Positions 25,005 through 26,726 of a stretch of 64,000 nucleotides of DNA are shown here, piece after piece (the first letter of the stretch is position 1; the number at the start of each line of letters is the position of its first letter). The DNA is from Gammaproteobacteria bacterium (GTDB taxonomy: Bacteria > Pseudomonadota > Gammaproteobacteria > Pseudomonadales > Pseudohongiellaceae), in the NCBI GenBank assembly GCA_030832825.1, contig JAURIJ010000007.1, positions 1 through 64,000 on the forward strand, read 5' to 3'. Under the pieces are notes generated by a model. The model saw only the letters and a program-made list of their open reading frames with translations. It was not told where the DNA came from and searched no databases. The position numbers were made by a program, and so were the translations under genes.

Positions 25005-25782
25005 TCACACGTCTCCCGTCTTGAAAGGCGCGCTGGCTGTGCCCTGCAGACGCGCGTTGTCGTCGAAGAACAGCACGATATTGCGGTAGCGGGACGTCAG
25101 CGCGATGGCATGCAACTCGTCGAGATCCCGCCCCAGATGCGCCTGCAGAGCAGCGAATTGTTCGCTCATTTGCGGGCTGACCGCCTCTATTTCGGCGACG
25201 CTCAAGGAAGACCCGATCACGCTGGAAAAATTCTCGGCCAGAGGACGATTAAGCGGCACTTGCTCATGGGGGGGGAATCTGCAGCTGCTCCACGGCCTGC
25301 ACGAATCGCTCGAAATCAGGCCCGGACTCCGGTCGACTCGCGTAGACATACACCGGAAAGTGCTCACCGAATTGCGCCAGCTGCGACAGGGGCACGCCCC
25401 GGCTGGTGATGGCCAGCGCCGGCACGGTGTAGAAACTGCTGTCGAGGAAGACCACAGCCACCGGCCACTGCTCGTACACAGGCTTGACGCCGTAAACCAG
25501 CGCGAGCACCTGCAACAGCACCACCAGACCGATGTCGGTGCGCAGTTCGCGCGCACTCTTGCGCGGATTGAAGAGGATGAGTGTGCACAGCGGCCCCAGC
25601 ACCTGATCGACGGCAGCCACCAGCTGAAGGCCCTGCCAGCCGCCTGACGCAGAGAAATAGGGTGCGGGGTAACAGACTAGCAGCAACACGCCCACAAACA
25701 GGGCGAACAGGCTCAGACTGAGGAGAAAATGCACGAACGCGGCGGTCAGACGCGTGTGCGGGCGCTGCAACGAAAACATCAT
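25005..25782 (-). pseudogene. Type IV pilin accessory protein (TfpX/TfpZ-like), reading frame split at a G8/C8 homopolymer
   Basis: N-terminal ORF 25264..25782 ends ...EQLQIPPP*; the continuing frame (25005..) begins ...PPHEQVPLNRPLAENFSSVIGSS. With seven C the reading is att ccc ccc cat gag caa, which is open. Confidence 0.7.
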
Positions 25783-25800: not shown

Positions 25801-26208
25801 TCAGCACAGACCGATGCCGACGCATGTACCGCCCGTGGTCCACTGGACGGGCACAGTGAGGGTGGGCGTCAGCGTGTAGGTGTGGCTGTCGACGTCGGCG
25901 GTGGCAGTGGCGATGATCACGCCGTCTGTGACGGTGGTGGACGCGAGCCAGCCGGTAGCGCCTGCCGTGGGGGGAATGCCATTGGTGCCGGCATCGGCGC
26001 CCGCGAGCGCACTGATGCGACCGCTTTGAATGGCAATGCCAAGCGCCGTCTTGTAGGGCGTGGTTGAGAGAATGACTTCGCTGAAGCGGGCGCGCTGGGT
26101 GTAGGTCTGATAGGCCGGCAGTGCGACGGCGGCGAGGATGCCGATGATGGCAATCACGATCATCAATTCTATGAGGGTGAAGCCTGCGTGGCGGGGGTGC
26201 TGATTCAT
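25801..26208 (-). CDS. Type IV pilin (second copy)
   Basis: '[37 protein letters not shown]'; C-terminal CVGIGLC. Confidence 0.92.
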
Positions 26209-26266
26209 CGTGCGTTCTCCCACGGGAGCCCGGAATCCGGCAAGTGTTGCAGTGAGTGTAAAACCA

Positions 26267-26306
26267 TTCACGCGCTGCCGACCGACATGGGCCGGCAGCG
26301 CGTGAA
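26267..26306 (-). terminator. Strong hairpin between the two pilin genes
   Basis: TTCACGCGCTGCCG-N12-CGGCAGCGCGTGAA, perfect 14-bp stem followed on the minus strand by TGGTTTTAC. Confidence 0.7.
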
Positions 26307-26312
26307 CACGTA

Positions 26313-26726
26313 TCAGCAGACGCCGGCTGCCAGGCAGGTGCCGGAAGTGGCCCACTGAATCGGAGCAGTCACGCCGTTCGGCGTCAGAATGTAGGTGAAG
26401 CCGCCCACGTCGGCAGAGCCAGTGGCTGTGATCACGCCATTGGCGACGGCAACGGAAGCCACTGCACCGGTCGCGCCAGCCTCAGCAGGAATGCCGTTGG
26501 TGCCAGAGTCGGCGTCAGCCAGCGCGGCAATTCGGCTGGTCTGGGCAGCCACTTCGAAGGCGCTCTTGTACGGCGTGGTGGCCAGCACGACTTCAGAGAA
26601 GGCGGCACGCTGGGTGTAGGTCTGGTAGGCAGGCAGCGCGACAGCGGCGAGGATGCCGATGATGGCAACCACGATCATCAGTTCGATCAGCGTGAAACCT
26701 TGTTGTACTTTCTTGGCCTGGATCAT
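26313..26726 (-). CDS. pilA: Type IV pilin (probable major subunit)
   Basis: '[42 protein letters not shown]'; C-terminal CLAAGVC. Confidence 0.93.

Follow-up and report, generated by a model that had tools for sequence, protein, structure and literature searches.

A run of eight C interrupts a TfpX/TfpZ-like type IV pilin accessory gene in an uncultured Pseudomonadales lineage

A pilin-accessory cassette with a broken frame

The stretch of DNA that was analysed (64 kb; the window) carries two tandem type IV pilin genes, followed by a tfpX/tfpZ-like gene whose reading frame is interrupted (Table 1). A divergent pilB-pilC-pilD set lies beyond the two pilins, and the order pilB / pilin1-pilin2-tfpX-cytochrome c / endonuclease / nadC / ampD / ampE / aceE is common to the congeners with which the window was compared. 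In the window, as in every congener that has tfpX and whose contig reaches that far, pilin2 is found upstream of tfpX.

Table 1. Features of the pilin-accessory cassette, with positions in the window.
Feature	Position	Strand	Remarks
pilin1, type IV pilin	26313..26726	-	Pfam N_methyl and Pilin
Strong hairpin between pilin1 and pilin2	26262..26310	-	From folding: -39.2 kcal/mol, z -4.2
pilin2, type IV pilin immediately before tfpX	25801..26208	-	Pfam N_methyl and Pilin; kept in congeners
tfpX/tfpZ-like gene, first part	25264..25782	-	172-aa ORF ending in QIPPP and a stop; NF041437 E 1.1e-27
C8 tract at the frame break	25268..25275	-	Plus-strand G, exactly eight bases
Out-of-frame remainder of the tfpX-like gene	25005..25268	-	87 codons and a stop; conserved with congeners

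The stop of the 172-aa frame comes directly after the run of eight C. The remainder of the gene lies in the adjacent frame, one base off, where it begins with HEQVPLNRPL and reads HEQVPLNRPLAENFSS...FKTGDV up to its stop. The original prediction, made from the letters of the window, had described a run of eight C that splits a TfpX/TfpZ-like ORF (ending in IPPP) beside pilin genes from a well-formed C-terminal segment in the next frame. Its coordinates and frames, the family to which it assigned the gene and its placing of the break within the homopolymer were all borne out, and the continuous protein of ~258 aa that it expected after repair agrees with the 257 aa of the congener proteins.

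Against the NCBIfam model NF041437 (TfpX/TfpZ family type IV pilin accessory protein) the first part scored 97 bits and the intact congener copies 130-144 bits; these scores, like those of most matches in the order, fall below the curated cut-off of 200 bits. Since intact congeners also score low, the low score is a property of this genus's branch and not only of the break. As in the TfpX/TfpY/TfpZ (FimB-like) proteins described previously (NF041437; PMC11841053), the gene stands directly downstream of a pilin gene and a hairpin follows the first pilin, while the window's cassette differs in having two tandem pilins before the gene, in the sub-cut-off scores of both window and congeners, and in the interruption of its copy. 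The locus is best explained as a cassette of the order pilin1-hairpin-pilin2-tfpX, in which the last gene encodes a type IV pilin accessory protein of the TfpX/TfpZ/TfpY(FimB)-like kind.

Folding revealed the hairpin after pilin1, whereas a promoter and terminator scan returned nothing. The hairpin has no full T-run. Hairpin-like inverted repeats occur after pilin1 in congeners at the same position and with different sequence, and an attenuating terminator has been described for pilin-accessory cassettes of Pseudomonas and others (PMC11841053). The hairpin is likely to be an attenuator.

The break site in related genomes

The window was compared with 13 congeners, all of them other species than its own. 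The frame is open through the break site in 11 of the 13; of the other two, one (G008) has lesions of its own and one (G004) has no copy. All readable congener copies have the motif I/V-P-P-H-E-Q at this site, encoded by CCG, CCC, CCT or CCA for proline and CAC or CAT for histidine. The longest C-run at the site is 2 to 5 bases in congeners, and none of the 12 congener copies has a tract resembling C8, which indicates that the long run arose in the window's lineage, probably by synonymous changes. Both prolines of the conserved IPPHEQ motif may have come to be encoded by CCC through chance, which, with a histidine codon starting with C next to them, would have produced a long C-run. A slippage indel in this run would then have shifted the frame, leaving the eight C observed today.

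In the wider order, the TfpX/TfpZ family was found in 44 of 246 genomes, and among the main matches only the window's copy has a short frame; an extra fragment of 72 aa occurs in one genome (G197) besides these main matches. No C/G run of at least seven was present in 30 gene copies from the order. At the level of the class, 70 of 370 genomes have the family, with frames of at least 192 aa except for the window's copy and a few extra fragments.

Loss of tfpX recurs in the genus. In G008 (L054 4490-5680) the gene has lost an internal segment, changes frame and contains a TAG stop, and the tandem pilins appear partly fused or collapsed, the start of pilin1 running into pilin2 in another frame; these lesions could reflect either real decay or misassembly. 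In G004 (L110 4455-6190) there is a single divergent pilin (51% identity), and both pilin2 and tfpX are missing from the interval that separates pilB from the cytochrome c gene, which suggests that the pilin-accessory cassette was exchanged or lost as a unit. A further contig, L043 (CAMCRC010000004.1), is titled as a Klebsiella pneumoniae metagenome-assembled genome (MAG); this title looks wrong, as gene order and a protein identity of mostly 66-94% place it in the window's uncultured Pseudomonadales genus.

The break had been proposed as a candidate for slipped-strand phase variation, in which reversible changes in tract length switch the full-length accessory protein on and off. A homopolymer does lie within a pilus gene beside pilins, with a clean remainder behind it, and poly-C/G tracts are known to switch pilC in Neisseria (PMC5953494). 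That system resembles ours in that a pilus assembly gene carries a C/G homopolymer within its frame; it differs in that the pilC tract is 9-20 bases long, whereas the window's tract is shorter, is not kept in relatives, has no known length variation and lies in the gene of a different protein. Switching leads one to expect a long, often-slipping tract that is kept in relatives at differing lengths and is usually one of several such loci. At eight bases the tract is shorter than the minimum of nine applied to C/G tracts in Neisseria, in which siaD, with a tract of seven, switches at <1e-5 (PMC5953494), and it is not kept with varying length among relatives, as judged from the 12 congener copies, all of other species, and from the 30 copies of the order. 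The literature searched for phase variation and frameshifts held no report of tract-mediated switching in FimB/TfpX-type genes. The homopolymer break beside pilin genes stood, but ON/OFF switching is unsupported: the tract is private and short and belongs to no set of tracts in surface genes, mutS is present in the genome, and the gene carries private substitutions (see below). We regard phase variation as unlikely here, and slightly more so its specific form of a newly arisen, low-rate switch in a TfpX-type accessory gene of a free-living freshwater bacterium.

Homopolymer runs, constraint and the origin of the break

Of all C/G runs in the window, the C8 tract is the longest. Under a third-order Markov model about 0.45 C/G runs of at least eight are expected per 64 kb, so that a run of this length is unremarkable alone; its coincidence with the only frame break is remarkable. 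When the window was compared by tblastn with ORFs from three congeners, no real frame break other than that of tfpX appeared among the matches listed. Other multi-frame matches, considered as possible breaks, proved to be paralogues (the tandem pilins and a pair at 50-53 kb) or antisense shadow ORFs.

These counts bear on the possibility that the break is a consensus or assembly error, with a shorter true tract and an intact gene in the organism. The genome (2.7 Mb, about 91% complete) is fragmented into 72 contigs and is very probably a MAG, and the break falls in the window's longest C/G run, where length errors are likeliest. A pattern search of the genome found 12 C/G runs of eight or nine. 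Five are located within long frames, those of anmK, lepA, rnd, surA and a histidine kinase gene, and the family domains of these proteins match in an unchanged frame, either spanning the run or following it. That the other in-gene C8 runs are in frame shows an assembly without habitual miscalls of such runs, and this, with the lack of any other break among the listed window matches, argues that indel errors are rare, though a single one may have occurred. No surface-gene pattern was seen among the genome's other C/G runs, and the placing of the in-gene runs in housekeeping genes also speaks against phase variation.

To compare constraint on the two parts of the gene, dN/dS was calculated between the window and its nearest congener, G005; the values were 0.082 (first part) and 0.128 (remainder). 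Three intact pairs gave 0.038-0.137 for the first part and 0.125-0.144 for the remainder, and the closely related pair G007-G002 gave 0.185 and 0.367. The remainder of the window's gene is therefore in the range of intact pairs and has no measurable decay, which means that the break is recent, polymorphic or artefactual. Purifying selection on the remainder, as on intact copies, is also what an assembly error would predict.

A different picture came from columns that are invariant in the other congeners. The window's tfpX has private substitutions in 6 of 92 such columns (W37C, L60Q, A101P, R106W and Q128R in the first part, and Y7N in the remainder), as against 6 of 1,323 for eight genes that lie close by in this genome (Fisher p 4e-5, or 7e-4 when the large aceE is left out), a test that was chosen after the alignment had been seen and whose signal lies in which sites are hit. 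For tfpX of the sister species G005 the count was 1 of 83 columns, and for that of the distant congener G010, which is divergent in most genes compared, 7 of 93. Polarised counts revealed no overall excess of nonsynonymous changes, with 9 on the window's branch versus 12 on that of G005. The substitutions at invariant sites provide moderate evidence that constraint on the window's tfpX may have been relaxed; as the downstream piece is undecayed and nonsynonymous changes are no more numerous, any such relaxation must be recent. An assembly error leaves the six substitutions unexplained, and phase variation is likewise at odds with them. We consider such an error to be rather improbable, though less so than switching. 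The original prediction had held a fixed mutation and a sequencing error to be equally possible; both remain among the readings, but the evidence favours a mutation, fixed or segregating.

The sequence at the break also raises the question of recoding. CCC-C is a +1 slip site, and ribosomal or transcriptional slippage on the C-run, in which CCC-C proline codons precede UGA, could yield some full-length protein; the stop directly after the run fits such a scheme. However, congeners read the gene without a shift, and there is neither a conserved signal nor a stable downstream structure (z +1.7), which makes recoding very improbable.

Taken together, the probable explanation is that slippage recently shifted the frame in this lineage and so truncated the pilin accessory protein. 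It is favoured by the open frame in 11 of 13 congeners, the private tract, the uniqueness of the break among the listed matches of the window and the six substitutions at invariant sites, as well as by the recurrent loss in the genus, the short TfpX of Pseudomonas Pa5196 and a dispensable FimB homologue in N. meningitidis (both below). It is weakened by the undecayed state of the remainder and because a C8 tract in one MAG could be a consensus error. Loss of function would most likely be recent, whether it is fixed or segregates still, and would have struck a gene on which constraint may already have been relaxed.

Predicted effect of the truncation

Structure prediction for the intact congener protein from L043 (mean pLDDT 65, moderate) gave three long helices, a mixed sheet and a helix and, beyond the IPPHEQ motif, additional helices together with a three-stranded antiparallel sheet. 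Three membrane helices followed by a periplasmic mixed sheet, a helix and a three-stranded antiparallel sheet are shared with TfpX/TfpY/TfpZ proteins, and the same architecture has been reported for TfpY-like proteins (PMC11841053). When the intact model was used in a fold search, no match was meaningful (best E 0.25), and the model of the window's 172-aa protein was too poor to interpret (mean pLDDT 53). Judged from the congener model, the window's protein, which ends at the motif, is predicted to lose the C-terminal helices and the three-stranded sheet. Translation would halt after IPPP and yield only the 172-aa protein, which would keep the three membrane helices but not the whole of the periplasmic domain. 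Reinitiation that gives a separate C-terminal piece was also considered: a GTG follows the stop, but there is no visible ribosome-binding site, so this is unlikely, and such a piece would be without the membrane segment responsible for its periplasmic location.

A natural short form is known from Pseudomonas Pa5196, whose TfpX has 170 aa, is without the same sheet and may be dispensable (PMC11841053). The end lengths are nearly the same and the same C-terminal sheet is missing; unlike in Pa5196, the shortening in the window is due to a homopolymer frameshift and the remainder is still in place. This likeness in length and lost part raises the possibility that the 172-aa form is itself a selected functional variant, as the Pa5196 protein may be. 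Its first part also has private substitutions at invariant sites, though, and the undecayed remainder implies little time for a short form to have settled, for which reasons we think a selected variant highly unlikely.

Under the preferred frameshift loss, pilus assembly would be reduced or unaffected, not switched. A FimB homologue is not required for pili in N. meningitidis (PMC2784325), and by analogy with this protein and with the Pa5196 TfpX a pilus defect in the window's organism is likely to be mild or absent.

A homopolymer frame break next to surface genes is, on its own, no evidence of phase variation. The locus indicates how codons chosen by chance in a conserved Pro-Pro-His motif may give rise to a slippery run that breaks a gene. 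The truncated product would join the Pa5196 protein as a second short TfpX-like protein of natural origin, and as such bears on which region these little-understood helpers of pilus assembly may be able to do without.
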